A stretch of DNA of 64,000 bases from Dehalogenimonas lykanthroporepellens BL-DC-9. GTDB taxonomy: Bacteria > Chloroflexota > Dehalococcoidia > Dehalococcoidales > Dehalococcoidaceae. The position numbers and the translations under genes were made by a program. This document shows positions 7,223 to 33,112 of the stretch, piece after piece (positions within the stretch are counted from its first letter, which is position 1; each line of letters opens with the position of its first letter). The notes under the pieces are model-generated. The model did not search any database, was not told where the DNA came from, and saw only the letters and a program-made list of their open reading frames with translations. The DNA is taken from the NCBI GenBank assembly GCA_000143165.1, contig CP002084.1, positions 1,302,001 to 1,366,000 of the forward strand, in the 5' to 3' direction.

Positions 7223-8512
7223 ATGCCCAAGATATACTTCATAGACGTAACCAACCGGGACGGCGTTCAGACCGCCCGCCTGGGCCTGTCCAAGCTGGAA
7301 AAGACGATGATAAACATCTATCTTTCCGAGATGGGGGTTTTTCAATCGGAGTTCGGTTTCCCGACTACCAATCACGAAACCAACTATCTCCGGGCCAACC
7401 TGCGTCTGGCCGAACTGGATGTCATCTCCCCGCTCCGGCTGGAAGGCTGGCTGAGGGCTATTCCGGGTGACGTGGAGCTGGCCTTCAAGATGGTGCCGGA
7501 ACTCAAGCACGTCAACCTGTCCATTTCCACTTCCGACCAGATGATAAACGGCAAGTTCAAGGGCAAGAAAACCCGCCAGGACGTGGTCAATGACATGACC
7601 GCGGCGGTGGACAGGGCCTACGAACTGGGCGCCGAAACGGTCGGCGTCAACGCCGAGGATGGTTCCCGGACCGATATCGATTTCCTGGTCGAGTACGGTC
7701 TGGCGGCCAAAAAGCACGGCGCAGTCCGCCTGCGCTACTGCGATACGCTGGGTTACGACGACCCGTTCTCCATCTACGAAACCGGCAAGACGCTGGCGGA
7801 ACAGGTGGGTATGCCCATCGAACTGCACTGTCACGGCGACCTGGGCATGGCGGTGGCCTGTTCGGTGGCCGGGGCCAAGGGCGTGGTCGACGGCGGCCAG
7901 GACGCCTACATCAACACCACCCTGAACGGCATCGGTGAACGAGCCGGCAACGCCGACCTCATCGCCACGGTGCTGGCGCTGACCAAGAGCAAGGGTTTTG
8001 CCGGCCGATACGAGCTGGGCACGCCCATCGACCTGAAGAAAAGTTATAAGATAGCCAAGTTCGCCTCCTACGCCTTCGGGGTGGATATTCCCATCAACCA
8101 GCCGGGCGTCGGCAAGAACGCCTTCGCCCACGAATCCGGTATCCACGCCGACGGCATCCTCAAGGACCCGCATAACTACGAACTCTACGGCTGTGAGGAG
8201 CTGGGGCGCGGCGAACCGGAATATGTGGAGACCGGCCGCGAAATCTGCGCCGGCGAGTACTCCGGGATTTCCGGTTTCTCCCACATCATGGGGGAGCGCA
8301 TGTCCTGGAACTTCAAGAGCAAGGAAGAAGCGCAGAATGTGCTGGAACTGGTACGCTTCGCCAATGTGCTGTCACACAAGCCGCTGGTGGAGGACGAACT
8401 GCTGTTCATCGCCCGCTACCCGCACACCGCCCGACGTTTGCTGACGCTGACGCCGCTGGAAAACAGCGAGCCGGACCGTATTCTCAACCCGCAGACCGAA
8501 GCCGGTACCTAG
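7223..8512 (+). CDS. Homocitrate-synthase-like acyltransferase, probable Re-citrate synthase
   Basis: The 429-residue protein belongs to the isopropylmalate/homocitrate synthase (DRE-TIM) family: the N-terminal VTNRDGVQTA stands for the DRExQ motif, ELHCHGDLGMA holds the metal-binding His pair, and NTTLNGIGERAGNA is the G-x-GERxGN motif. In Dehalococcoides strain CBDB1 a gene annotated as homocitrate synthase was shown to be Re-citrate synthase, filling the missing first step of the citrate route to glutamate; I infer the same here. The ATG at 7223 follows an AGAGGTG ribosome site and starts at the conserved MPKIYFIDV; an upstream in-frame start at 7181 looks spurious. Its 3' end overlaps that of the next gene by four bases on the opposite strand. 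Confidence 0.8.
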   Translation: MPKIYFIDVTNRDGVQTARLGLSKLEKTMINIYLSEMGVFQSEFGFPTTNHETNYLRANLRLAELDVISPLRLEGWLRAIPGDVELAFKMVPELKHVNLSISTSDQMINGKFKGKKTRQDVVNDMTAAVDRAYELGAETVGVNAEDGSRTDIDFLVEYGLAAKKHGAVRLRYCDTLGYDDPFSIYETGKTLAEQVGMPIELHCHGDLGMAVACSVAGAKGVVDGGQDAYINTTLNGIGERAGNADLIATVLALTKSKGFAGRYELGTPIDLKKSYKIAKFASYAFGVDIPINQPGVGKNAFAHESGIHADGILKDPHNYELYGCEELGRGEPEYVETGREICAGEYSGISGFSHIMGERMSWNFKSKEEAQNVLELVRFANVLSHKPLVEDELLFIARYPHTARRLLTLTPLENSEPDRILNPQTEAGT

Positions 8513-9294
8513 GAACCAGCCTCGACCACGGCTGATGGCCGTTCCTGGAAGGGATGCGTCCGCAGGAGCAGGGAATAGAAGTAAGGATAATGCTGTTTCA
8601 GGTGCTCGGCGTATGACAGCCATTCGGCCACCAGCCGGTCATAGAAACGGTTGATATCCCCGGCCAGATGACGCTGGTCGGCTGAGGGCAGGTCAACCAG
8701 ATTCGGCCGGGCTTCCAGTTCCTCCGCCAGGTGAGTGATGGCCCACAGAAGGTCGGTGAAAGCCTCGCGCTCCAGCAGATTCGGGTTTTCCATCAGCGTC
8801 ATCAGAAACTGACGGTTGTCGGACAGAAAGACTCGCAGACCTTCAAGATCCAAACGGGAGAAATCTACTTCCATTTCCAACTCCAGAGCACGCTGTCGGG
8901 CGCGGCGGAAGTCGGCCGGTTGCCAGTCCTGCGTTATCCGGAAATGTTCGTAAAGCTCACCCCGCTCGCAGAAATCGGTCAACAGTTCCCGCATAAGCCG
9001 GTTGCCGACCACCATAAAGAAGGTGCCGACCACCATGTTGAGCTTGGAGTTGAGGGCTTTTTTCTCGCGCTGGGCCAGTAGTCTTTCGATAACTACCACC
9101 ACCAGAAAGACCTCTATCGGCAGGAAAGCGATATCGTGCAGGGCAAAGATGCCGATATGGTGGGCATCCTGGAAAACGAAATAATGGAGCGCATAGAGAA
9201 CGGCCGACAGACCGAGAGCGATAAGGCCGGTGGTGATGATGAAACGACGCTCGTTCACGGCTACCTCGTCAGACAGATTGTTTGTATTTATCAT
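8509..9294 (-). CDS. Conserved-looking membrane protein of unknown function
   Basis: This 261-residue protein was not recognised. Two membrane segments are predicted by eye: about residues 19-41 (TTGLIALGLSAVLYALHYFVF) and 51-69 (AFLPIEVFLVVVVIERLL). The remaining 190 residues are soluble, helical and rich in Glu, Arg and Leu, with many aromatic residues near the C-terminus. It is convergent with the Re-citrate-synthase-like gene and divergent from the metallo-hydrolase gene. The long intact frame and an antisense frame that is poor make it a likely real gene. No function is claimed. Confidence 0.65.
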   Translation of the reverse strand: MINTNNLSDEVAVNERRFIITTGLIALGLSAVLYALHYFVFQDAHHIGIFALHDIAFLPIEVFLVVVVIERLLAQREKKALNSKLNMVVGTFFMVVGNRLMRELLTDFCERGELYEHFRITQDWQPADFRRARQRALELEMEVDFSRLDLEGLRVFLSDNRQFLMTLMENPNLLEREAFTDLLWAITHLAEELEARPNLVDLPSADQRHLAGDINRFYDRLVAEWLSYAEHLKQHYPYFYSLLLRTHPFQERPSAVVEAGS

Positions 9295-12106: not shown

Positions 12107-12799
12107 ATGGGGCTTTACCTGGCGCTTATCATTCCCCCGCTGTTGCTGATGCTTTACGCCCAGTGGCGGGTTTCTTCTACCTTCGGTAAATACAACAAGG
12201 TAGCCAACGAACGCGGCATGACCGGCCTTGAAGCCGCCCGCTGGTTGCTTGATCAGCATAACCTGCAGGACGTCCGGTTGGAAATGTCCAAGGGCAAGCT
12301 GTCGGACCATTACGACCCGCGCGGTCGGGTGCTGAGGCTGTCACCGGATGTGGCCAACAAGGCCTCGGTGGCCTCACTGGGTATCGTTGCCCATGAGGTC
12401 GGCCATGCTGTCCAGCACGCCACCGCCTACGGCCCGCTCCGGTTGCGCAACTCCCTGTACCCCGTGGCCAACCTGGGTTCCAACTTCGGGTTCATCCTGG
12501 TGCTGGTCGGTTTCCTGCTGTATGCCTTCGGTGCCTCCTTCGGCCTCAACATCGCCTGGGCGGGGGTAGCCCTTTTCGGCGCGGCGGTGGTTTTTACCGT
12601 CATCACCCTGCCGGTGGAGTTCAATGCCTCCACCCGCGCCCGGACGATGCTCCGGTCCACCGGACTGGCTTCAGTGGCCGAGATGAACGGCGCTTCGGCG
12701 GTGCTGTCGGCGGCGGCGCTGACCTATGTAGCCGCCATGCTTCAGGCGGTAGCCCAACTGATGTACTTCGTCATGCTGTTGATGGGTGGAAGACGCTGA
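12107..12799 (+). CDS. YugP-like membrane zinc metallopeptidase
   Basis: The 230-residue protein has an N-terminal membrane segment, the zinc-binding HEVGHAVQHA (HExxH) near residue 96, and two further membrane pairs (FGFILVLVGFLLYAFGASF and GVALFGAAVVFTVITLPVEF), ending with a hydrophobic helix. This is the layout of the YugP/DUF2268-like neutral zinc metallopeptidases. LPVEFNASTRA in the second half is typical. It should act at the membrane; its substrate is unknown. It is followed four bases later by a Crp/Fnr regulator. Confidence 0.85.
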   Translation: MGLYLALIIPPLLLMLYAQWRVSSTFGKYNKVANERGMTGLEAARWLLDQHNLQDVRLEMSKGKLSDHYDPRGRVLRLSPDVANKASVASLGIVAHEVGHAVQHATAYGPLRLRNSLYPVANLGSNFGFILVLVGFLLYAFGASFGLNIAWAGVALFGAAVVFTVITLPVEFNASTRARTMLRSTGLASVAEMNGASAVLSAAALTYVAAMLQAVAQLMYFVMLLMGGRR

Positions 12800-12803
12800 C
12801 GTG

Positions 12804-13544
12804 ATGACCCGTCTGGGTTGTATGACCGACATGTGCCTCTTTTCGGCGCTGGCCGATGAAGAGAAGGCGGAATTGCAGAGGACTGCGGTACGGCGACTGA
12901 ACTATCGCCGTAACGAAACGCTGTTTCGGGAAGGCGACGTCGCCGAAGCAGTTTTTATGGTCACCGCCGGGCGTATCCGGTTATACAAGCTGTCTGAAGA
13001 CGGCCGGGAAATCACCCTAGGCTACCTGGGTGTTCATGACCTGTTCGGCGAGGAAATTCTGTTTGCCGACAATATCCGGACCTTCAATGCTTCTGCGGTG
13101 GAAGACACCCGGGTCTGCGCCTGTTTCAAGACCGATATGGAGACCATGCTCTCCAGCCATCCGGCGGTGGCCGCCCGGGTCATCAAGGTAATGGCCAACC
13201 GGCTGTCGCAACTGACCGAACAACTGGCCGACGTGGCCATCTATGATGCCCGGCATCGCATGATGCGCACCCTGGGCCGGCTGGCCCGCACCGGCGGTGA
13301 AAGAACCGAAGACGGCGGCGTCCGGCTGGCTTTCCGGCTGACTCACGACGACCTGGCGGCCCTCATCGGCACCTCCCGGGTCATGGTCACCAACGTCCTC
13401 AAGTCACTGAGGGAGGAAGGCCTGGTTTCGACCGACCCCGAACTGCGACGTCTGGTGGTGGCGCCACGTCTCCTTACCGAAGACAATGAGACAGCGCCGG
13501 ACGTTCCCGCCCGGCGCTGTCTGTGTTTCGCCGAAACGACCTGA
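12804..13544 (+). CDS. Crp/Fnr-family transcription regulator
   Basis: The product has 246 residues from the ATG at 12804. An N-terminal cyclic-nucleotide-binding-type beta barrel (LFREGDVAEAVFMVTAGRIRLYKLSEDGREITLGYL) is followed by a dimer helix and a winged helix-turn-helix with ALIGTSRVMVTNVLKSLREEGLV. No N-terminal Fe-S cysteine cluster of the Fnr type is apparent (only Cys6 and Cys11 near the start), so the effector is unclear. It is four bases after the YugP gene, so probably co-transcribed. A GTG at 12786 overlapping the peptidase gene is a less likely start. Confidence 0.85.
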   Translation: MTRLGCMTDMCLFSALADEEKAELQRTAVRRLNYRRNETLFREGDVAEAVFMVTAGRIRLYKLSEDGREITLGYLGVHDLFGEEILFADNIRTFNASAVEDTRVCACFKTDMETMLSSHPAVAARVIKVMANRLSQLTEQLADVAIYDARHRMMRTLGRLARTGGERTEDGGVRLAFRLTHDDLAALIGTSRVMVTNVLKSLREEGLVSTDPELRRLVVAPRLLTEDNETAPDVPARRCLCFAETT

Positions 13545-13550
13545 GCGGCG

Positions 13551-13958
13551 TCAGCGGCCGTCCAGCATGGACGGGGTGACGTCGCACGGCACCTGCAGGC
13601 TGTCAGCGATAGCATTGAAACTGGAGAACAGCTCGACAACCTTCTTGAGCTCGATGATTTCCTCCCGAGTGGCGCCGGTCATCAGCGCCATGGTTTCATG
13701 AGCCAACGAGCAGTACTGACAACGATTCGTCAGCGATACGGTCAGGGCGATGAGTTCCCTGGTTTTGCGATCCAGCGCTCCCGGCGCCAGCATGATGGCC
13801 TTTTCCCGTTTCCAGTTCAGCTCCAGCCATGCCGGGTCAGCATCGGCCTGGGCTTGAAAGAAATTGGGTACCATGCCGAGAGCTTGCCGTATTTCCTCCA
13901 GCAGAGGCCCGGCCTCGACCCGGGATTCAGATTGTTCCTGATTCAAGTTATCTATCAT
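13551..13958 (-). CDS. Carboxymuconolactone decarboxylase / AhpD-like protein
   Basis: The 135-residue product contains NRCQYCSLAHETMAL, the Cys-x2-Cys-x3-His redox motif of the CMD/AhpD fold, and LDRKTRELIALTVSL just before it. Such proteins are small trimeric or hexameric disulfide reductases or decarboxylases. The start at MIDNLNQE is chosen because the frame further upstream, toward 14201, encodes low-quality sequence that overlaps a separate small membrane gene. It converges with the Crp/Fnr gene across six bases. Confidence 0.8.
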   Translation of the reverse strand: MIDNLNQEQSESRVEAGPLLEEIRQALGMVPNFFQAQADADPAWLELNWKREKAIMLAPGALDRKTRELIALTVSLTNRCQYCSLAHETMALMTGATREEIIELKKVVELFSSFNAIADSLQVPCDVTPSMLDGR

Positions 13959-21919: not shown

Positions 21920-22192
21920 ATGAATTTTTTCGGCATGGGCACCTTCGAGATCGTCACTATTCTCGTGGTCGCCACGCTCATTTTCGGACCCAACAAGATA
22001 CCGGAGTTCGCCAAGAAAGCCGGGGAGTTCATGCGTGGTTTTCGTAAGGTGACCACGGATATGACTAAGGAGTTCACCAAGGCCATCGACAGTTCTCCGA
22101 CCAAGACCCCCGGGATCACCGGCAAGACTTCAAACTCAGTGACCGGTAGTAAGAATCTGGATGATTTCCTGAGTAGCAGTAACAAGAAATAA
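21920..22192 (+). CDS. TatB-like subunit (third TatA/B-family protein)
   Basis: This 90-residue protein has a membrane helix (FEIVTILVVATLIFGPNKIPEFAKKAGEFMRGFRK) with the FGPxKxPE hinge, a longer amphipathic helix than the two preceding paralogues and a Ser/Thr-rich tail. Position just before tatC is typical for TatB, which with TatC recognises the twin-arginine signal. The hinge alone cannot separate TatA from TatB, so the name is tentative. The start lies behind a weak ribosome site. Confidence 0.85.
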   Translation: MNFFGMGTFEIVTILVVATLIFGPNKIPEFAKKAGEFMRGFRKVTTDMTKEFTKAIDSSPTKTPGITGKTSNSVTGSKNLDDFLSSSNKK

Positions 22193-22222
22193 ACCTTTGA
22201 TAAAAAGGAACAATCCTGACGC

Positions 22223-22957
22223 ATGACCACTGAAGAAGAAAGTCGTTTGCCCATAACGCAACACTTCACCGAGATGCGGCAACGCTTTATTCGTGCTCTG
22301 GCGGGTGTCGGTGTCGGTACCGGTTTAGCCCTGTTTTTCGGTTTCGATATCATAGAGCTACTCGAAGGCCCTGCTGGCGACATGGCTGAACAGCTGGTCG
22401 CCATTGAGATGCTGGAGATGATCAGCCTCTACTTTCGGGTATCATTAACTGCAGGTTTCATTCTGGCGATGCCCTGGGTGCTTTATCAATTATTTGCTTT
22501 CCTGATGCCGGCGTTCACTTTGAAGGAAAAAAGGTTTATTTTTACCTTTTTCCCATTCATCGTCATCATGTTCCTGGGCGGTGTGGCCTTTGCTTACTGG
22601 GTGGCCATGCCCCCTGCGGTTCAGTTTCTCTTCGGTTTCGGCTCTGAAACCATCCAGGTGATGCCCTGTGTTTCCAATTACATCGACGTTGTTCTGAGGC
22701 TGTTGGTCGGCATAGGGCTGGCTTTCGAGTTGCCTATCATTCTGGCCGCGCTGTCGGCGGTGGGCATCGTCACTTCCAAGTGGCTGGCTTCCAAGCGCAA
22801 GATATGGTTCGTTCTGGCCTTCATTCTGGCGGCCTTCATCACGCCGACCATGGATCCCATCAACCAGATGATAGTAGCCGGGCCGCTGATTGTGTTATAC
22901 GAAGTCAGTATCTGGCTGACGAAGGTGGTACGCAAGCGGAAACCGGCGATACAATAA
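22223..22957 (+). CDS. tatC: TatC, twin-arginine signal receptor
   Basis: The 244-residue protein has the N-terminal ITQHFTEMRQRFIRAL (the conserved HL-E-LR-R region, here HFTEMRQR), six membrane segments, and FAYWVAMPPAVQFLFGFG in the third loop region, all usual for TatC. It binds the twin-arginine signal of RdhA and ApbE. It ends the tat operon 30 bases after the TatB-like gene; a terminator follows at 23032. Confidence 0.95.
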   Translation: MTTEEESRLPITQHFTEMRQRFIRALAGVGVGTGLALFFGFDIIELLEGPAGDMAEQLVAIEMLEMISLYFRVSLTAGFILAMPWVLYQLFAFLMPAFTLKEKRFIFTFFPFIVIMFLGGVAFAYWVAMPPAVQFLFGFGSETIQVMPCVSNYIDVVLRLLVGIGLAFELPIILAALSAVGIVTSKWLASKRKIWFVLAFILAAFITPTMDPINQMIVAGPLIVLYEVSIWLTKVVRKRKPAIQ

Positions 22958-23187: not shown

Positions 23188-24411
23188 TTGTTTAATTACT
23201 TCAGGAAACATAAGTCCAGGGCGGTATTCGGCCTGGCGGTGCTGGCACTGATCGGCGCCGGTATTTATGGACAGGCCAGCCGTGGCCTGTCCGGATACGA
23301 GTCTTATCTGCCCGAAGCCTTTCCTGAAGCCACCGACTTTACTGCGCTGCGTTCCAGTAGCGGCGCGACGCTGTTCCTGGCCGAGGATGACGAGGGGCAG
23401 GGTCTGGGTTATGTGACCGCCGCCGAGGGGCCTGGTTACGGCGGCCCGATGGTGGTTCTGGTGAGCTGGACGCTGGACGGCACCATCATGACCGTAGAGG
23501 TGCCTGAACATCACGAGGACCTGTCCTGGTGGCGGGCGCTGGAACGGGAAAATTTCTTCGAAAAGTATCAGGGGCGGAGTTTTACCCAGCCGCTCCGGTT
23601 GTTCGATGATGTCGATAATGTAACCGGCTCCACGGTTTCTTCCAACGGGGCGGCTGTCGGTGTTCGCATCGGGCGTGATGTGCTGGCGACCTATCTGGGT
23701 CAGCCATATACCGGGCCCAAAGACCCTATACAATTTGGGTGGCCGGAAATTGCGGCTCTGCTGGGTATCGCTTCCGTAGTGTTGTTGAGGATGACGCCCC
23801 GGCTCAAAAAGTTCCCCTGGCTCAGGAATTACAGCCTGGCCTATGGTTTCATCATTTTCGGCGTCTGGCTGTCGGTACCGCTCAGCCTGACTAACATAGC
23901 TTCCTGGCTGATAGGCTACTCCCCCCACCTGGAGACGTTTATCATCATCTATATTGTCGTCTTCGGTTTCCTGGGGCTGGCGGTTCTGCTGGGCAAGAAC
24001 TTCTACTGTTTCTGGCTGTGTCCGTATGTGGCGGTGCAGGAATTCATTCACCTGGTGTTCCGGGTCCGGATTCAGCCGGACGTAAAATGGTTTAAGATAT
24101 TGCGTAATATGCGATATGTACTGCTGTTCATCGCCCTGTTCCTGGTACTGGCCCTCAAGAATCCGTCGGTGTCGGTCTTCGAGCCATGGAATGTCCTGTT
24201 CAGTATGAAAGGGACCAGCGAGCAGTGGGTGCTGATGTTCTTCGCCCTGACCGGGGCGGTGTTCATTTACGATTTCTGGTGCCATTACCTGTGTCCGGTG
24301 GGCGCGGTGATGGATATCATACTCAAAGTCCGCCGAGGGGTCATCGACATATGGTCAAGAAACAGGAAACAGCCAAACCGCGTCACGCCGCCAACTTCTT
24401 CGTCGGGCTGA
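23188..24411 (+). CDS. NosR/RdhC-like FMN-binding, Fe-S membrane protein, copy 1
   Basis: The 407-residue protein has an N-terminal membrane anchor (residues 13-30), an external FMN-binding domain (about 75-170), and five C-terminal membrane segments with two NapH-type cysteine motifs, Cys274-FWL-Cys278-Pro and Cys365-HYL-Cys369-Pro. The flavin-attachment site is T-G-S-T-V-S at 146-151; canonical sites read SGAT, so Ala is replaced by Ser, and Thr149 would be the acceptor. PceC/RdhC proteins of this type carry covalent FMN and are proposed electron donors to reductive dehalogenases. The start is TTG at 23188. It runs into a 43-residue membrane peptide and faces a broken rdhA across a shared terminator. 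About 40% of residues look shared with the second copy at 29071 over the conserved parts. Confidence 0.9.
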   Translation: MFNYFRKHKSRAVFGLAVLALIGAGIYGQASRGLSGYESYLPEAFPEATDFTALRSSSGATLFLAEDDEGQGLGYVTAAEGPGYGGPMVVLVSWTLDGTIMTVEVPEHHEDLSWWRALERENFFEKYQGRSFTQPLRLFDDVDNVTGSTVSSNGAAVGVRIGRDVLATYLGQPYTGPKDPIQFGWPEIAALLGIASVVLLRMTPRLKKFPWLRNYSLAYGFIIFGVWLSVPLSLTNIASWLIGYSPHLETFIIIYIVVFGFLGLAVLLGKNFYCFWLCPYVAVQEFIHLVFRVRIQPDVKWFKILRNMRYVLLFIALFLVLALKNPSVSVFEPWNVLFSMKGTSEQWVLMFFALTGAVFIYDFWCHYLCPVGAVMDIILKVRRGVIDIWSRNRKQPNRVTPPTSSSG

Positions 24412-24482
24412 TGGTGCTGATCGGGGCCGTCATGGTTCTGGTGGTTATCGTCACCAAGATGGTTGAGGTGCTGGGCGCATAA
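24351..24482 (+). CDS. 43-residue single-helix membrane peptide overlapping the NosR/RdhC-like gene
   Basis: An ATG at 24351, inside the last 61 bases of the previous gene, opens MVKKQETAKPRHAAN, then a long hydrophobic helix (FFVGLMVLIGAVMVLVVIV) and the ending TKMVEVLGA. The ending resembles the C-terminal membrane tail of the FAD/Fe-S oxidoreductase at 30287 (SKLADILA after a similar helix), and its first ten residues resemble the start of that enzyme (MTKQKTADIR). It occupies the equivalent place behind a NosR/RdhC-like gene. It may be a membrane subunit or what is left after the catalytic body was lost. The stop lies at the foot of the terminator hairpin. Confidence 0.6.
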   Translation: MVKKQETAKPRHAANFFVGLMVLIGAVMVLVVIVTKMVEVLGA

Positions 24483-24537: not shown

Positions 24538-24700
24538 TTATCCTTTGTTGATGAATTCCGGAGCGACACCGTAGGTTGGTTCACTCTCCAGATCCCACCA
24601 TGTTTCTGGATCTTTGAAACCGTAACCCATTGTTTTTTCCATTGTTGTGAAGAAGCTATTGAACAACGGAGTAATAGCAGAGGTCGCCCTGACTATTCCA
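24538..24700 (-). pseudogene. rdhA: C-terminal stump of a third rdhA, cut by an IS256-family element
   Basis: The minus strand encodes a 53-residue tail (from GIVRATSAITPLFNSFF to APEFINKG, TAA at 24538). The segments FFTTMEKTMGYG and TWWDLESEPTYGV line up with the C-termini of both intact RdhA proteins here (for example FFTNMDKAFGYD and TWWDIQNAPVYG). Upstream coding sequence stops exactly at the IS256 end at 24701, so the Tat signal, corrinoid domain and Fe-S motifs are gone. The piece cannot make an active enzyme. It shows that a dehalogenase gene once faced the NosR/RdhC-like gene. Confidence 0.88.
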
Positions 24701-26075
24701 AGTAGAATCCCCGTACGTGGTGTAAATTCCTGGAATTGAAAAAGCAGGCCATTGTGTGGTTTCTTGAAAGAAAATAACAACAAAGACTTTCAGGAGGTAA
24801 CCACGACAATGGCCAAAGACAGGATGACACTTTTGGAATTGCTACGCAAGTCAGGAAGTGACAGCGAGCTTGATTTTCTAAAAGCAGGGGTGAAAATGCT
24901 GGCCGAAGCGGTCATGGAGCTTGAGGTTAAGCAGAAGACCGGAGCTGAGAAACATGAGCGCAGTAACGGTCGTTTAACCTACCGTAACGGCTACCGGGGG
25001 CGTATCTGGGACACCCGGGCCGGCACGATACCCTTGGCGATTCCCCGGTTGCGGGACGGCAGTTATTTCCCCAGCTTGCTCGAGCCCCGGCGCCGGGCGG
25101 AACATGCCTTGCTGGCGGTAATCCAGGAAGCCTATGTATTGGGCATCAGCACCCGCAAGGTGGAATCTCTGGTTCAGTCACTGGGGCTTAACGGTATCAG
25201 TAAGAGCGAGGTATCGCGAATATGCGGGGCTCTGGACGATGAAGTGGAACGCTGGCGCCACCGGCCTTTGTTATGGCGTTATCCCTATCTGTGGCTGGAC
25301 GCGACCTACGTCAAGGTCAGGGATTCAGGTCGGGTGGTCAGTCAGGCAGTAATTATCGCCTACGGCGTCCGGGAAACCGGGGAACGCGAGATCGTCGGGC
25401 TTGAGGTCGGCCCCAGTGAAGACGGTGTATTCTGGAAAGAGTTTCTGCGGGGGCTGGTTAGCCGTGGTTTGAGCGGGGTGATGCTGGTAATCAGTGATGC
25501 CCATCTGGGGCTGAAGGAAGCCATCAGCACGGTACTCACCGGGGTATCGTGGCAACGCTGCCGGGTGCACTTCATGCGCAATGCGCTGGCCAGAGTGCCA
25601 CGGGGCGCCCAGGCTATGGTATCTGCCGCTATCCGGACTATCTTCGCTCAACCTGACCGCGATAGCGCTTGTATCCAGCTCCGCCAGGTAGCCGATAACC
25701 TCAGACTCCGATTCGGTACTGTTGCCGACCAATTGGAAGAGGCAGAACCGGATATCCTGGCCTATACCGCCTTCCCTCGGGAACACTGGCGGCAACTTTA
25801 CTCAACCAATCCCCTGGAGAGACTGAATAAGGAAATCAAGCGCCGCAGTAATGTGGTCGGCATCTTTCCCAATAGCAAAGCGGTAATCAGGCTGATTGGG
25901 GCGGTGCTAATGGAACAGCAGGACGAATGGGAGATCGGACGTCGCTACTTTTCTTTGGATTCGATGAAGAAAACGCTGGAAGGGGCGCAGGAGGAACCCC
26001 TTATCATGGCTTTACAACCTTAATGATTCGGGAAACCACCAATCATGAATTTACACCACTTGACGGGACACTACC
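24701..26075 (+). mobile_element. IS256-family insertion sequence, copy 1 (1375 bp)
   Basis: Both ends are defined by comparison with the copy at 54623, which has the same length. The terminal inverted repeats match at about 22 of 28 positions (left begins GTAGAATCCCCGTACGTGG, right GTAGTGTCCCGTCAAGTGG, after one outer base). The left flank CTATTCCA and right flank AGCTTGGT do not match, so no target duplication is present. That points to a deletion or recombination after insertion. The right end carries an outward TTGACG. Confidence 0.9.
24809..26023 (+). CDS. IS256-family transposase, copy 1
   Basis: This 404-residue DDE transposase appears intact. The catalytic residues are in WLDATYVKV (first Asp), VISDAHLGL (second Asp) and TNPLERLNKEIKRR (Glu), with the family CxxH-like WQRCRVHFMRN between. 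The ATG at 24809 follows CAGGAGGT. It differs from the copy at 54731 at only a few residues, so the two elements are recent relatives. Confidence 0.95.
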   Translation: MAKDRMTLLELLRKSGSDSELDFLKAGVKMLAEAVMELEVKQKTGAEKHERSNGRLTYRNGYRGRIWDTRAGTIPLAIPRLRDGSYFPSLLEPRRRAEHALLAVIQEAYVLGISTRKVESLVQSLGLNGISKSEVSRICGALDDEVERWRHRPLLWRYPYLWLDATYVKVRDSGRVVSQAVIIAYGVRETGEREIVGLEVGPSEDGVFWKEFLRGLVSRGLSGVMLVISDAHLGLKEAISTVLTGVSWQRCRVHFMRNALARVPRGAQAMVSAAIRTIFAQPDRDSACIQLRQVADNLRLRFGTVADQLEEAEPDILAYTAFPREHWRQLYSTNPLERLNKEIKRRSNVVGIFPNSKAVIRLIGAVLMEQQDEWEIGRRYFSLDSMKKTLEGAQEEPLIMALQP

Positions 26076-26088
26076 AGCTTGGTACAAT
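26060..26088 (+). promoter_or_regulatory. Hybrid promoter made by the right end of IS256 copy 1
   Basis: TTGACG (26060-26065) inside the right inverted repeat stands 17 bp before TACAAT (26083-26088) in the flanking DNA, an almost ideal sigma70-type promoter directed at rdhA number 2. The TACAAT lies eight bases before the IS3-family element that now separates it from rdhA. IS256 ends are known to supply outward -35 boxes. Confidence 0.65.
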
Positions 26089-26129
26089 ACCTCTATGAGG
26101 TCGGATGTCAAATTCAGACACCAAACCTT

Positions 26130-26990
26130 TCATGCCGCCACCAGTCCTGCGTAGAATTGTTGAGCATAAGCCGCCGGCGACAAGAATCCCAGCCTGGCTT
26201 GCCGGCGTTGCCGGTTGTAGAAGATTTCGATATACTCCGTGATCTCCCGGATGGCTTCTTGTCTGGTTCTATAGCGCCGATGATTCACCAGTTCCTGTTT
26301 TAGCGTTCCCCAGAAGCTCTCCATAGGTGCGTTGTCGTAGCAGTTCCCTTTCCGGCTCATGGAAGCTCTCAAGCCAAATCGTTCCAGTAGTCGCCGGTAC
26401 TCGAGGGAGCAATACTGGCTGCCCCGGTCAGAGTGGTGCAACAGCCCCTCGGCCGGGTGTTTAGCGGCCACCGCCCGAAGCAAAGACTCATTGACCAGGT
26501 TTCTGGTCAAGCGCTTACCCATGGCATATCCGACAATTTCGCCATTCCACAGGTCCTTGTGGCCTGCCAGATACAGCCAACCTTCATCGGTAGAAATATA
26601 GGTGATATCGGTGAGCCATACCTCATTCGGCCTGGAGGTTACAAACTTCTGCGCCAACAGGTTTCCGGCTACCGGCAACCTGTGCCTGGAATCCGTGGTA
26701 ACCTTGAACTTACGCTTCTGTTTGCAACGTATCCCCAGCTTTTTCCGGATGCGCTTGATACGGCAAATACCCACCCTCACGCCGTGCGCCGCCAAATCCC
26801 GCTGTAGTCGCTCCGGCCCATAGGTCTGGCGCGTCCGCTTATCCGCTGCCTTGATCTCCAACTCAAGCCGCGCTTCCTCCTGACCCCGCTTCGATAAAGG
26901 CCTATCCATCCAGGCATAAAAGCCGCTACCGGAGACACCAAGCATTCGCCGGAGAATAGGGACTGGATATTTGAGCCGCAGTTCTTTCAT
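26130..26990 (-). CDS. IS3-family transposase OrfB (catalytic part)
   Basis: The 286-residue frame has the DDE integrase core: WLTDITYIS, HHSDRGSQYCS and NAPMESFWGTLKQEL, with the HTH_21-like QTYGPERLQRDL upstream. It overlaps orfA by ATGA and lies in the -1 frame relative to it. An A-AAA-AAG slippery heptamer at 27040-27034 can give the fused OrfAB transposase; the -1 frame is open from there to the orfB ATG. Confidence 0.94.
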   Translation of the reverse strand: MKELRLKYPVPILRRMLGVSGSGFYAWMDRPLSKRGQEEARLELEIKAADKRTRQTYGPERLQRDLAAHGVRVGICRIKRIRKKLGIRCKQKRKFKVTTDSRHRLPVAGNLLAQKFVTSRPNEVWLTDITYISTDEGWLYLAGHKDLWNGEIVGYAMGKRLTRNLVNESLLRAVAAKHPAEGLLHHSDRGSQYCSLEYRRLLERFGLRASMSRKGNCYDNAPMESFWGTLKQELVNHRRYRTRQEAIREITEYIEIFYNRQRRQARLGFLSPAAYAQQFYAGLVAA

Positions 26991-27304
26991 CGCCGCGTAC
27001 CGGGCAGCGACTCCCTGGCAAAGTACGCGGCTGCTTTTTTTAATATTTCCCGCTCCATTTTGAGTTCGGCATTTTCCTTCTTTACCCGGGCCAGCTCCAT
27101 CTCTACTTCTGTCAGCGGCCGGTATGACTTGCCCACTTCTTCAAGCTTGCCGGCTCTGTGTTTCCTGAGCCAGTTGTCCAAGGTGTTTGACGGCAGTGCC
27201 AGCCGCCTGGCAGCTTCCGCCACAGACAACTTATCCTCTGTCACCAGCTTCACCGCTTCCAGCCTGAACTCCCTCGTATACTTCCCGTGTGGAATCCTTT
27301 CCAT
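26987..27304 (-). CDS. IS3-family transposase OrfA
   Basis: This 105-residue protein has the helix-turn-helix (EFRLEAVKLVTEDKLSVAEA to ALPSNTLDNWLRKH) and a leucine-zipper-like coiled coil (MELARVKKENAELKMEREILKKA). It binds the element ends. The slippery A7G run encodes LKKA near residue 90 and is where frameshifting to orfB would occur. Confidence 0.92.
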   Translation of the reverse strand: MERIPHGKYTREFRLEAVKLVTEDKLSVAEAARRLALPSNTLDNWLRKHRAGKLEEVGKSYRPLTEVEMELARVKKENAELKMEREILKKAAAYFARESLPGTRR

Positions 27305-27394
27305 CCTGACACCTCCGTCTGTCTTATTTTACCTGACTTTGGTGTCCGTTTTATCCATCCTACCCCACTATATATTTATTTGGGAGGTTTATTC

Positions 27395-28819
27395 ATGTCC
27401 AAATTCCACAACACTCTATCCAGGCGGGATTTCATGAAAGCGCTGGGGGTGGCCGGCGCCGGACTCGGAGTTGGGATGGCAGTCAACCCGGCGTTCCACG
27501 ATGTGGATGACTTGATGTCTGATGAAAAAGCCGGGCATAAGCTTCCATGGTATGTTAAACAAAAAGACCACCCAACAGCAGAAATAGATTGGAGCGCAAT
27601 GGCTAGATACGACATGAGAAATCAGTATAATCCAGGCTTGGATCACGAAGGGGCTGATGGGTATCCGAATGTCGCGGCCAAATGGGCGTCTGAACAGCGT
27701 GCCAAAATGGTCGATTACGCCAGCTCCGGGAAAAAAGGAGCCGAATTAAAGGATTTGGGTATAGCATTGGGTTCCCAATGGGGATGGATTCATGAGGCTC
27801 GTCCGTACTTTAATTTCTTCCCCGATTCCAATTTCCCGGTAATATTACCTGGCGGATTTCAAACTCCGGAAGAAGTCGGTATTCCTAAGTATCAGGGTAC
27901 TAAGGAGGAAAACGCACGGATGATTCGGGCGGCGTTCCATTATTTTGGAGCGGCGCATGTTTCATTTCAGGAATTGAACGATGACACCTTGAAACTGATA
28001 TATGCTAATGATGATAGTGGCCGTCCATATGTCTTCGAGGATGTCGATCAGCCGTATGTGACCCCGGAAAAATATGTTATACCCAGGAAATGTAAGTATG
28101 TAATCAGTTATCTGGTGGTTCAAAATCTGTATTCCAACAAAGTAGGGCAAAGTTGGGACAGTTATATCGGTGGCGCGGCTGTCGCAAAGGCTTACTCCGA
28201 ACTGAATTTCTTACAAGGCCGGGTAATGACATTCGTTAGGACGCTAGGTTACACAGGAGTAGGCAGTAATCCCGGGCATGTTAATGGCTTTGCGGTGCTG
28301 GGCGGCCAAGGGGAACTTGGGAGAGCGAATATAATGATTCACCCGGTTTACGGCATGGTAGGCCGTGTCCCTAATATGCTAATTACCGACCTGCCAGTTC
28401 CTACCGAAAAACCAATTGATTTCGGAGCTTTTGAATTCTGTAAAACCTGTATGAAATGTGCCGATACATGTCCCAGTGGGTCTATCAGCTTTGAAAATGA
28501 ACCCAGTTGGGACGTTGCCGGGTCATGGAATGCAGGTGGTGTACGTACCTGGTATGCCAATTGGAAGACTTGTCTTCCCTATCGCAATATGCGTTATCCA
28601 GGTCTATGTGGAAATTGCCAGAGCATATGCGTATTCTCAAAATTAGATGCCGCCAGTGTCCATGAAGTAGTTAAAGGGGTTGTCGGTACTACCAATATCT
28701 TCAGTGGATTCTTCCGTAATATGGACGATGCCTTTGGGTACAATCACTACGATACAGATGATTGGTGGAATAGGGAAATACCTTTCAAGTACGATGCTAC
28801 CAATGGAAGATGGTGGTAA
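27395..28819 (+). CDS. rdhA: Reductive dehalogenase catalytic subunit, number 2
   Basis: The 474-residue protein is a paralogue of the one at 3989. The Tat signal is SRRDFMKALGVAGAGLG (Arg10-Arg11). Cluster one is Cys349-x2-Cys352-x2-Cys355-x3-Cys359 and cluster two Cys393-x11-Cys405-x2-Cys408-x3-Cys412, with Val rather than the usual Pro after the last Cys. The C-terminus ends in NGRWW. ATG at 27395 follows TGGGAGGT; upstream in-frame codons lie inside the IS3 element and are not used. A sampled stretch is about 43% GC by hand count. No rdhB follows; the next gene is a NosR/RdhC-like protein. The native promoter was pushed away by IS3. Confidence 0.97.
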   Translation: MSKFHNTLSRRDFMKALGVAGAGLGVGMAVNPAFHDVDDLMSDEKAGHKLPWYVKQKDHPTAEIDWSAMARYDMRNQYNPGLDHEGADGYPNVAAKWASEQRAKMVDYASSGKKGAELKDLGIALGSQWGWIHEARPYFNFFPDSNFPVILPGGFQTPEEVGIPKYQGTKEENARMIRAAFHYFGAAHVSFQELNDDTLKLIYANDDSGRPYVFEDVDQPYVTPEKYVIPRKCKYVISYLVVQNLYSNKVGQSWDSYIGGAAVAKAYSELNFLQGRVMTFVRTLGYTGVGSNPGHVNGFAVLGGQGELGRANIMIHPVYGMVGRVPNMLITDLPVPTEKPIDFGAFEFCKTCMKCADTCPSGSISFENEPSWDVAGSWNAGGVRTWYANWKTCLPYRNMRYPGLCGNCQSICVFSKLDAASVHEVVKGVVGTTNIFSGFFRNMDDAFGYNHYDTDDWWNREIPFKYDATNGRWW

Positions 28820-28833
28820 TAGGTTAACCAGAA

Positions 28834-28870
28834 AAGACTTAAGGGCGGGGAATTCCCGCCCTTAAGTCTT
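28834..28870 (+). terminator. Hairpin terminator after rdhA number 2
   Basis: A perfect 16-bp stem (28834-28849 with 28855-28870) with the loop GAATT lies 14 bases after the stop. The T-run behind it is weak (TGTAAG). It suggests the next genes use their own promoter. Confidence 0.8.
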
Positions 28871-28945
28871 TGTAAGCGCATTTGAAATACCAATAAATTT
28901 GAATTTCTGGCTATTTATAAAAAATAATCTAAAGATAAGGTTGTA

Positions 28946-29070: not shown

Positions 29071-30264
29071 TTGTCGCGTATCGGCTTTTGGGCTCTTCAC
29101 GGGAAAAAAGTCCTTATCACAGCAGTTATTTTAAGTATTATCGGCGCCTGGGTATATGGTCAATTAAACATCAGTACGGATGCAGAGCAGTATTTTACGG
29201 AACTGGTTCCGGACATCGTTCAAACAGAACTTGTTGCCAGTAATCCAGCTGAGAACCAGTATTTATATTCCGTATCGGCTGACAACTCGGAGGTAGCTTA
29301 TATCAGTACGGGTCAAGGGCAGGGTTACGGGGGCCCGGTATTGGTTGAAGTTGCCTGGAGTGAAGGCGGCACGATACTCGATATTTTAGTACCGGAACAC
29401 AATGAAACCGAAGCCTGGTATTCCAAACTTGCTGAAAATGAATACTTTGCCCAGTATGAGGGGCGTACTTTTTCAGACCCTTTCTCGTTGGGGGAGGATA
29501 TCGACGCCGCGTCCGGAGCAACCAGATCTTCAACCGGTGTTGCGCAGGGTGTTTATAATTCACGTATGCTCCTGGCCGAGCACCTGGGGCAACCCTATGT
29601 CGGCCCCGAACAAACCATTAAATTTGGAACACCGGAAATCCTGTTGTTAGTCGGATTGGCCCTGGTACTTCTATTCAGGCTCGTCCCCAAGCTACGCCTA
29701 TTGCGATGGACTCGGGCTTTTGCACTGGCCTATGGCTTTATAGTTATCGGCATTGCACTCACAGGCATGCTTTCCCTAATCAATTTCATCGTCTTTCCCA
29801 TCGGTTTCGCCCCTTCTATCTTTAACAACCTCTATCTGTATATCATCGTCTTCGGCATCATTGGGTTGGCGCTCATCTTCGCCAAGAACTTCTGGTGCTT
29901 CTGGCTATGCCCCTTCTGCGCTGTCCAGGAGGGGGCTCATTTCATCGGTGGCAGTCGCAACCGCCCGGTCACCCGACGCCAGCTCATGCTGAGAAATACC
30001 CGCTACTTCGTGCTGTGGGCGGTGGTACTGCTGGCGCTGTTGTTCCGCCAGCCGCAACTGGCGGTGTTCGAACCGTGGAACACGCTGTTCAGCCTGGAGG
30101 GTAGCCAGCTTCAATGGTTGCTCGTTTTTACCATGATAGGGATAGCCATGTTTATCCATGATTTCTGGTGCCATTATCTATGTCCGGTAGGCGCCACCAT
30201 GGACATCGTTTTGAAAATAAGGGCCTGGTTTGCCGGCTTGTTCGGGCGGCTGAGTTCCCGTTAG
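29071..30264 (+). CDS. NosR/RdhC-like FMN-binding, Fe-S membrane protein, copy 2
   Basis: The 397-residue protein repeats the layout of the copy at 23188: membrane anchor (residues 13-30), external FMN domain, five C-terminal membrane helices. The flavin site is canonical, S148-G-A-T151 in DAASGATRSS, so Thr151 should carry FMN bound by ApbE. Cysteine motifs are Cys276-FWL-Cys280-Pro-Phe-Cys283 and Cys367-HYL-Cys371-Pro. The TTG at 29071 is chosen for its GAGAGG ribosome site; a GTG at 29038 would add 11 residues. Base composition changes inside the gene: about 46% GC over 29101-29460 and 62% over 29881-30060 by hand count. It is followed 22 bases later by the FAD enzyme. Confidence 0.9.
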   Translation: MSRIGFWALHGKKVLITAVILSIIGAWVYGQLNISTDAEQYFTELVPDIVQTELVASNPAENQYLYSVSADNSEVAYISTGQGQGYGGPVLVEVAWSEGGTILDILVPEHNETEAWYSKLAENEYFAQYEGRTFSDPFSLGEDIDAASGATRSSTGVAQGVYNSRMLLAEHLGQPYVGPEQTIKFGTPEILLLVGLALVLLFRLVPKLRLLRWTRAFALAYGFIVIGIALTGMLSLINFIVFPIGFAPSIFNNLYLYIIVFGIIGLALIFAKNFWCFWLCPFCAVQEGAHFIGGSRNRPVTRRQLMLRNTRYFVLWAVVLLALLFRQPQLAVFEPWNTLFSLEGSQLQWLLVFTMIGIAMFIHDFWCHYLCPVGATMDIVLKIRAWFAGLFGRLSSR

Positions 30265-30286: not shown

Positions 30287-32074
30287 ATGACCAAGCAGAA
30301 AACCGCAGATATCAGAGTAATCCCCGAAGAAAAGGTCAGCCGTCGGACCAGGTTCTTTGGCCGTCGGGAAGAATTCAAGTGGGTGGAAAGCCATTGCACC
30401 GCCTGTGGCCGGTGCAGTCGGGTCTGTCCGGTGGATGCCATCAATATTGACCGGACAAACGAACTGACCAAACGCATGCGTTCCGCGCCTTGCTCACAAG
30501 CCTGCCCCGCCGGTCTTGACGGTTCACGCTACGCTCGTTTTATCGGTGAGGGCAAGTTCGCAGAAGCGGCGGCGGTGATTAGAGAAAGGGCGCCGTTTCC
30601 GCTGGTGCTGGGCCATGTCTGCAAACGGCCCTGTGAGGCTGAATGTCAGCGGGGCAAATATGAAGGCACCCTGCAGTTACGGGCGTTGAAACGCTTCGCC
30701 GCCGCCAAGGATGACGGGGAGTGGCGGAAACGGCTGAAGATAGCCCCGGATACCGGTAAAAAAGTAGCTGTGGTCGGTTCCGGGCCGGCCGGGATGTCGA
30801 TAGCCTGGTTCCTGCGCATCCTGGGACATCAGGTAACGGTGTTCGAAGCCCTGCCCGACAAGGGCGGCAAAATGCTGTCATCCATTCCCGATTACCAGTT
30901 GCCCAAGGATGTGGTGGCCGGTGAGATTGAAATCATAGAAAGCCTGGGCGTGGAAGTCAGAACGAATACCAGCGTCGAGTCAACCCAGAGTTTGCTGACG
31001 GATGGTTACGACGCAGTAGCACTGGCCATCGGCGTCAAGGGCTGGGGCAAGTCCATCAAATTGCCGATATCCGGCGCCGGGGACACGGGGGTGGTGTCCG
31101 GTGCCGAGATGATGAAAAAGATAGAAGCCGGCTGGCCGCTGGAGCTGGGACAAAGAGTCATTGTCCTTGGCGGTGGCGCGCAGGCATTCCGAATCGCCCT
31201 GACGGCGGCCCGGGAGGGGGCCACCGATGTTCACATCTTCGGCCAGGAACACACCGGTGGCGTCGATCCCGATGCCTGGGAAGTGGATTCAGCTCTGGCC
31301 GAAGGGGTGATAGTCCATTCCTCGTCCATGTTCTACCGGGTAATTCGGGAGGACGGCCAGGTCAGGGGTGTCAGCGCCCTCAAGATTCGGGCGCTGGGAT
31401 ACGACAGCGAGGGCCAGGTCTGCTTCGACGCCCTGCCCGGCGACGAAGAGATTTACGAAGCTGACAGCGTGGTATCCACTTTCGACGAAAAAGATATTGA
31501 AAGCGATCCGATGGGCGTCAGCCCGGGCGTTTTTGCCGCCGGCGACGCGGTCAATGAACAGCGTTCGGTGATTGAATCCATCGCCGCCGCCCGCTGGGTG
31601 GCCGCCGCGGTGGATCGTTATCTGGGGGGCGCGGGTGACCTGACCATGGATCTGGCCGCTTCGGAATCAGCGGCGGCGCTGACCCCGATTAAGGGTGTGA
31701 AGACCAAGTTTCCCTCGCCGGTGCCGGTCCGGTACGTCAAAGCCAGCGACGGTTCTCAAGCGGCTTCGGAACAGACTCTGCCGGATACGGCGGCGGTGGC
31801 TGACGCCAGGCGATGCCTCAAATGTGATTTGAGCTATGAACTGAAAGACTATCAACTGGATACCGGCGTGTGCGTTTTCTGCGGCCGTTGTATCGAAGCC
31901 TGCTACTGGAAGGCCATAACCCCGGGCGCCGGATATGAAAAAGCCCGACAGGCCGCTGAAGTAGTGGAAGCCCGGGACAAGCGCTTTTCCAACGTACTGA
32001 CGGTGCTGGTGGCCGTCGGAGTGCTACTTATCGTTGCCGTTACTTTTTCCAAGCTTGCTGATATACTTGCCTGA
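30287..32074 (+). CDS. Membrane-anchored GltD-like FAD/Fe-S oxidoreductase
   Basis: The 595-residue protein combines an N-terminal ferredoxin motif (Cys37, 40, 43, 47), the GltD-type cysteine region (Cys69, 73, 112, 116, 120), an FAD loop VVGSGPAGM near residue 162, a second nucleotide loop VLGGGAQAFRIAL near residue 290, GVFAAGDAVN closing the FAD site, another ferredoxin motif near the end (CVFCGRCIEAC), and a final membrane helix (VLTVLVAVGVLLIVAVTFS). It has no export signal, so it should sit on the cytoplasmic face. It may oxidise NAD(P)H or ferredoxin and feed electrons to the NosR/RdhC-like protein. The Rossmann loop does not decide between NADH and NADPH. It is 15 bases from apbE. Confidence 0.9.
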   Translation: MTKQKTADIRVIPEEKVSRRTRFFGRREEFKWVESHCTACGRCSRVCPVDAINIDRTNELTKRMRSAPCSQACPAGLDGSRYARFIGEGKFAEAAAVIRERAPFPLVLGHVCKRPCEAECQRGKYEGTLQLRALKRFAAAKDDGEWRKRLKIAPDTGKKVAVVGSGPAGMSIAWFLRILGHQVTVFEALPDKGGKMLSSIPDYQLPKDVVAGEIEIIESLGVEVRTNTSVESTQSLLTDGYDAVALAIGVKGWGKSIKLPISGAGDTGVVSGAEMMKKIEAGWPLELGQRVIVLGGGAQAFRIALTAAREGATDVHIFGQEHTGGVDPDAWEVDSALAEGVIVHSSSMFYRVIREDGQVRGVSALKIRALGYDSEGQVCFDALPGDEEIYEADSVVSTFDEKDIESDPMGVSPGVFAAGDAVNEQRSVIESIAAARWVAAAVDRYLGGAGDLTMDLAASESAAALTPIKGVKTKFPSPVPVRYVKASDGSQAASEQTLPDTAAVADARRCLKCDLSYELKDYQLDTGVCVFCGRCIEACYWKAITPGAGYEKARQAAEVVEARDKRFSNVLTVLVAVGVLLIVAVTFSKLADILA

Positions 32075-32089
32075 ACCGGAGTTCACGAT

Positions 32090-33112
32090 ATGAAAAACAA
32101 CATCAATCGCAGAGATTTCGTTAGAATCACCGCTGTCAGCGCCGGAGTGCTGGCGCTGGGCGGCATGGGCATCAGGGAACTGGTGGAATCCGGGAACGCC
32201 CGGGAGTTTACCGAGACCCGTTCTCTGCTGGGGACGTTCATCACTATCAAGCTGATAGATACCGAGCCGTCCCGAGCCACCGGCGCCATCGAAGACGGCT
32301 TTGCCGAAATCGAAAGACTGTCACGGCTGTTGTCCCGGCACGACCCGGCCAGTGAACTATCCATCCTGAACCGGACCGGACATATCGCCAATGCCTCCCC
32401 AGAACTGACCGGCGTCATTCAGAAGGCCCAAACCTATTCCGAGCTGACTTCAGGCGCCTTCGACGTCAGTGTTCTGCCCCTGCTGGAACTTTTTAGCCGT
32501 AGTTTTGCCGAGGGCGGCGAGCCGCCGACCGAACGTGACATCCGGGCGGCCCGGGAAATGGTGAATTACCATGCCATCGAAGTGGTTGACCGGGATATCC
32601 GTCTGGCGGCGCCGGGCATGGGTTTGACCCTGGATGGCATTGCCAAGGGTTATGTGGTCGACCAGGCGGCTATCCTGCTCCGGGCGAGAGGCCTGACCCA
32701 GGTGATGGTCGAAGCCGGCGGTGATATGTCTCTGAGAGGGATGAGAGAGGATGGTCAGGCCTGGAAAATCGGTCTGACTCATCCGCGGGCGCTGGCCGGT
32801 TATTATGAAGTACTGCAGACATCCAATGACAGTCTGGCGACGTCGGGGGATTACGAAAATGCCTTCACCGCCGACTACTCCTGGCACCATATCATCGATC
32901 CGCGAATAGGCCATTCACCGCGTGAACTGGCCTCAGCCACGGTTGTCGCTCCGGATACCGCCTATGCCGATGCTCTGGCTACCGCGGCCATGGTCATGGG
33001 GGTTACCGAGTCCCTGGCGCTGTTCGAAAAACTGCCGGGGGTGCAGGCGCTACTCATCGACAAGGGCATGAAGCGGCACACTACTGCCGATTACGCAGTC
33101 GCTTCCGCCTGA
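32090..33112 (+). CDS. apbE: ApbE, FAD:protein FMN transferase, Tat-exported
   Basis: This 340-residue enzyme attaches FMN to Thr in SGAT-type sites outside the membrane. An N-terminal Tat signal is visible (NRRDFVRITAVSAGVLAL), while many ApbE are lipoproteins; no lipobox Cys is seen here. Family motifs are GLTLDGIAKGYVVDQA near residue 182, VEAGGDMSLRG, HHIIDPRIGHSP and YADALATAAMVMG. It ends the operon that begins with the FMN-binding membrane protein, so its target is very likely encoded beside it. It converges with rel across 15 bases. Confidence 0.94.
   Translation: MKNNINRRDFVRITAVSAGVLALGGMGIRELVESGNAREFTETRSLLGTFITIKLIDTEPSRATGAIEDGFAEIERLSRLLSRHDPASELSILNRTGHIANASPELTGVIQKAQTYSELTSGAFDVSVLPLLELFSRSFAEGGEPPTERDIRAAREMVNYHAIEVVDRDIRLAAPGMGLTLDGIAKGYVVDQAAILLRARGLTQVMVEAGGDMSLRGMREDGQAWKIGLTHPRALAGYYEVLQTSNDSLATSGDYENAFTADYSWHHIIDPRIGHSPRELASATVVAPDTAYADALATAAMVMGVTESLALFEKLPGVQALLIDKGMKRHTTADYAVASA

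Follow-up and report, generated by a model that had tools for sequence, protein, structure and literature searches.

The genome of Dehalogenimonas lykanthroporepellens BL-DC-9, a single contig of 1,686,510 bases, encodes in the window studied here (the whole 64-kb stretch of DNA that was analysed, along which positions are counted) a NosR/RdhC-type membrane flavoprotein of 397 aa, rdhC2 (29071-30264, forward strand), recognized by Pfam matches to FMN_bind and Fer4_5 and by its orthologues. The reading frame also opens earlier, at GTG 29038; by comparison, TTG 29071 is the more likely start, since this is where most orthologues begin, with a length of 397 aa.

The neighboring genes are encoded on the same strand. 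The conserved locus opens with tatA and tatC (21920-22957), identified from their translations and from synteny with orthologues, followed by rdhC1 (23188-24411), a paralogue of rdhC2 (43% at the amino acid level), and, beyond two insertion sequence (IS) elements, by the AT-leaning rdhA2 (27395-28819; GC3 of 0.46). Downstream of rdhC2 come a FAD/Fe-S GltD-like oxidoreductase with a C-terminal hydrophobic helix (30287-32074) and apbE, encoding a FAD:protein FMN transferase (32090-33112; Pfam ApbE, 7e-75). Between rdhA2 and rdhC2, a strong inverted repeat followed by TTTG (28836-28879, forward strand) reads as an intrinsic-terminator-like structure.

The conserved locus and its rdhA cargo

Full-length orthologues of rdhC2 are present in all 10 other genomes of the family, at 77% to 52% identity, i.e., in the seven other genomes of the genus (G001-G007, the genome studied being G000) and in the three of the sister genus Dehalococcoides, and the gene order tatA-tatC-rdhC1-rdhC2-(gltD-like)-apbE is conserved around it. 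In G006 and the three Dehalococcoides, rdhC1 and rdhC2 are adjacent, 3' of tatA-tatC and adjoining recA, with no rdhA between them. Three rdhA genes occupy this interval in G001 and two in G005, a single one on the opposite strand is found in both G002 and G007, G003 and G004 carry rdhC2 after tatC and rdhC1 elsewhere, and in G000 the gap holds two IS elements and rdhA2. Because the rdhA genes between rdhC1 and rdhC2 vary in this way among genomes, they are cargo in the locus, both halves of rdhC2 being resident. The original prediction that the downstream FAD enzyme and apbE form a resident operon agrees with this comparison, in which rdhA2 is cargo. An orthologue of rdhA2 (88% at the amino acid level) lies at the same place in G001, and none was found at the corresponding locus of G006 or Dehalococcoides; being common to G001 at the same place, rdhA2 is older than this species or was acquired on two occasions.

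The two elements between rdhC1 and rdhA2 (24702-27367, strand not assigned) are IS256-like and IS3-like, have imperfect terminal repeats at 24702-24732/26044-26074 and 26096-26125/27338-27367, and occur as many near-identical copies (96-99%) in the loci of the genome that were fetched. About 27 bases separate the end of the IS3-like element from the start codon of rdhA2 (27338-27395), so that this gene may no longer have a promoter of its own. On the reverse strand, 24538-24760 is the remnant of an rdhA 3' end that shares about 45-50% identity with rdhA genes of G001 and of this genome; cut by the IS256-like element, it records a previous cargo in the locus. Across the 3' end of rdhC1, in a different reading phase, runs a 43-aa frame with a single helix (24351-24482, forward strand) that is similar to the hydrophobic tail of the GltD-like protein. 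It is conserved behind rdhC1, in sequence as in length, in the other genomes inspected, among them Dehalococcoides.

RdhC proteins have been delimited by an FMN motif [S/T]G[A/S]TX[S/T], two CX3CP motifs and the presence of one or more rdhA in the genome (PMC5928378). The family is further characterized by six transmembrane helices with an extracytosolic FMN domain and by FMN bound covalently to the threonine; hydrophobic segments are visible in the sequence of rdhC2. In the alignment, the FMN motif reads SGATRS in rdhC2 and TGSTVS in rdhC1, the two CX3CP motifs of rdhC2 are CFWLCP and CHYLCP, and the genome has 28 rdhA matches, some of which are fragments; rdhC2 is thus similar to the RdhC family (CprC, VcrC, PceC; PMC5928378) in its FMN motif, its two CX3CP motifs and its rdhA-rich genome. 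However, unlike the RdhC of a one-to-one rdhABC operon, it is resident in a tat-rdhC1-rdhC2-gltD-apbE locus in which rdhA is inserted. It also resembles NosR/NapH in its FMN domain and NapH-like membrane part, but its NCBIfam matches are far under cut-off (47.9 bits for NosR, against an equivalog cut-off of 1000) and, unlike NosR, it has 397 aa and aligns with the NosR model in part only. Judging from motifs and neighboring genes, RdhC1 and RdhC2 would receive FMN from ApbE on their extracytosolic domain, and this domain, together with the CX3CP membrane part, may carry electrons through the membrane to serve dehalogenases exported by Tat or the maturation of these enzymes. Such an outward electron-carrier role seems likeliest for rdhC2 because ApbE and the GltD-like protein are encoded downstream and Tat genes upstream.

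A composition step within rdhC2

The GC content is 45.3% at 29101-29460 and 62.2% at 29881-30060, close to the 46% and 62% originally estimated; the latter stretch is a local peak, and 30101-30264 is back down to 49.4%. The signal is confined to third codon positions: from the 5' part (29071-29823) to the 3' part (29824-30264), GC1 goes from 0.56 to 0.51, GC2 from 0.41 to 0.40 and GC3 from 0.49 to 0.75, with a GC3 peak of 0.85 at 29842-30099. A single GC3 changepoint is supported by a likelihood ratio of 28.1 (p ≤ 0.002 against codon shuffles), and its best position is codon 252, i.e., 29824, with a profile-likelihood interval of 29743-29854. A step describes GC3 better than a linear trend by 4.3 AIC units (517.0 vs 521.3), which confirms that the predicted break inside the gene is real and abrupt. 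When rdhA2, rdhC2, gltD and apbE were joined, BIC preferred two segments with a sole border at 29785, so that the composition border falls within rdhC2 and not between genes.

Among 290 genes from 464 kb of this genome (400 kb of sampled sequence and the 64-kb window), rdhC2 ranks 4th for the strength of its in-gene changepoint, and some of the genes rivalling it look like reading frames extended wrongly. With a fixed 63/37 split, the difference between C- and N-terminal parts averages +0.003 (sd 0.055) over 154 sampled genes of 300-520 codons, with a top value of 0.248 and a next one of 0.143; the top value probably belongs to rdhC2, which would make it the most uneven of these genes of similar length. 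None of 13 orthologues shows a step as large. At another locus of the same genome (L107), two frames lying close together (7945-8808 and 12544-13872) have GC3 steps of 0.26.

Codon tables built from 13 rdhA genes and from 156 other genes divide rdhC2 likewise, codons 1-236 being rdhA-like (+17.9) and the remainder core-like (-14.6), in keeping with the original remark that rdhA2 is AT-rich like the first part. Position-wise constraint was ruled out as the cause of the step, because the conserved residues of rdhC2 differ in the same way, with a GC3 of 0.52 in the 5' part and 0.79 in the 3' part.

Relationships of the two parts

Trees were built from an alignment of 28 rdhC sequences for two stretches of residues, 12-260 and 261-400 in a numbering that starts at GTG 29038. 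In both trees G000 groups first with G001 and next with G006, the support for G000 with G001 being 100 in the 5' part and 65 in the 3' part. For the 5' part, AU tests rejected every alternative tried (p < 0.004), namely G000 with G006, G000 outside G001 and G006, G000 basal, G000 with G003/G004 and G000 with Dehalococcoides; for the 3' part, G000 with G001 is best and G000 with G006 is not rejected. No conflict between the trees of the two parts, the mark of a foreign-lineage chimera, was found. A search with the 5' part over 156 genomes of the order returned nothing nearer than G001 (74%), and its nearest relatives rank much like those of the whole gene.

The original prediction held that the 5' part had arrived with rdhA, and named a single tree for the two halves as a result that would speak against a foreign half. 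That single tree is what we obtained, and in G006, whose locus has no rdhA, the 5' part leans just as much toward AT (GC3 of 0.53). The proposed recombination therefore retains the break and the arrival of rdhA as cargo and loses the foreign 5' half, an exchange with a close relative being the only form of it that keeps some weight. By its orthology, its synteny and the common tree of its two parts, rdhC2 is an ordinary resident gene with a real composition step.

Origin of the step

Compared with its relatives, the 5' part lies at the level of the clade (GC3 of 0.49 in G000, 0.52 in G001, 0.53 in G006 and 0.46 in G005) and the 3' part is what moved in G000 (0.75, vs 0.62 in G001, 0.60 in G006 and 0.56 in G005). 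At recA, rny, relA, gyrB, tat, rdhC1, gltD and apbE, the GC3 of G000 exceeds that of G001 by 0.06-0.17, an excess shared by the 3' part of rdhC2 but not by its 5' part or by rdhA2. We consider it probable, with moderate confidence, that rdhC2 was inherited vertically as a resident gene and that the step reflects uneven silent-site evolution in this lineage. The 3' part would have followed the rise in GC of the genome, and the 5' part, together with the rdhA2 cargo upstream, would have kept a lower GC3 typical of the clade. The 5' GC3 is below the 3' GC3 in all 10 other orthologues of the family, none of them significantly when taken singly, including those with no rdhA upstream (G006 and Dehalococcoides); this common lean, also present where rdhA is not, favors silent sites that did not follow the trend over the import of a block. 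We thus infer that uneven silent-site evolution, and not exchange, is the cause, although vertical descent does not explain why the silent-site level changes within one gene, and the codon usage and composition that the 5' part shares with rdhA2, as a co-imported block would, count against it.

The main rival, which we hold possible but clearly less probable, is that homologous recombination with a close, unsampled and AT-richer Dehalogenimonas replaced a block from rdhA2 to about codon 250 of rdhC2; the donor having had the same gene order, trees would not reveal the exchange. It would account for a single AT-leaning block that runs from rdhA2 to 29785 and ends inside rdhC2, for rdhA-like codon usage through codon 236 and for the fact that the 5' part and rdhA2 alone missed the GC rise of the lineage. 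At fourfold sites, rdhA2 is 26% identical to its counterpart in G001, the 5' part 35% and the 3' part 58-60% (35 vs 58%, p = 0.012), as such an exchange would predict; however, species pairs without G000 show the same silent drop in the 5' part (23 vs 43% between G006 and G002), and lower 5' silent identity was therefore rejected as a proof of exchange. With G006 as outgroup, amino acid changes in the 5' part number 34 in G000 and 10 in G001 (p = 0.0004), a surplus confined to that part of rdhC2 and found in none of gltD (32:32), apbE, tatC, recA and recX. The changes cluster near residues 31-90, and the changepoint, loosely placed (64-340), is near residue 91, so that the acceleration does not stop at the GC step and was dismissed as a mark of the same block. 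Exchange is further weakened by the estimate that the 5' part is about as distant from G001 as vertical descent predicts, and by the lack of a donor among the 156 genomes. Along rdhC2, no tract of raised codon identity to the sampled relatives was found, silent sites being nearly saturated and sampling sparse, and a GC-rich donor such as G002 for the 3' peak was rejected for want of such a tract. Vertical silent-site lag and block import are poorly separated by these tests because silent sites are near saturation between species.

In G001, which also has rdhA2, the zone of low GC likewise reaches into rdhC2, to codon 66, and this too counts against vertical descent. It is conceivable, though rather unlikely, that Dehalogenimonas exchange rdhA cassettes by homologous recombination, with the rdhC genes on either side as anchors, in which case each swap would drag along a variable length of the 5' part of rdhC2 (to codon ~66 in G001 and ~250 here) and leave composition steps inside the gene. 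The rdhA exchange regions of Dehalococcoides, in which an apparently chimeric rdhA has been described, are similar in their variable rdhA content within conserved surroundings (PMC2764846), but at the present locus the cargo is flanked by a pair of fixed rdhC genes close to recA. If the step were an exchange border, it would show rdhA swapping at a fixed electron-transfer and export locus, which bears on how dehalogenating bacteria gain new substrates.

That an incoming rdhA, along with the 5' part of another NosR-like gene, was fused to the 3' part of a resident rdhC would fit the switch of composition and codon usage within rdhC2, but is very improbable given the identical trees of both parts, the rejection by AU tests of the alternative 5' origins tried, the AT-leaning 5' part without rdhA in G006 and Dehalococcoides, and the occurrence of rdhA2 at this position in G001 as well. 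Gene conversion between the paralogues rdhC1 and rdhC2, which lie 4.7 kb apart, could have produced a GC-rich 3' part (GC3 of rdhC1, 0.71), but was rejected as next to impossible, since no window of raised identity links them and third positions are 34-42% identical throughout the 3' part. A sharp in-gene composition step is not by itself the sign of a foreign half, even when it ranks near the top of a genome sample, and orthologues and separate trees are needed before it is read as such.

The tree of tatC (22223-22957) groups G006 with G002, away from G000 and G001, unlike those of rdhC2 and gltD, and tatC was possibly replaced in some species. In G000, this gene presents a weaker GC3 step, from 0.54 to 0.74 after codon 111.
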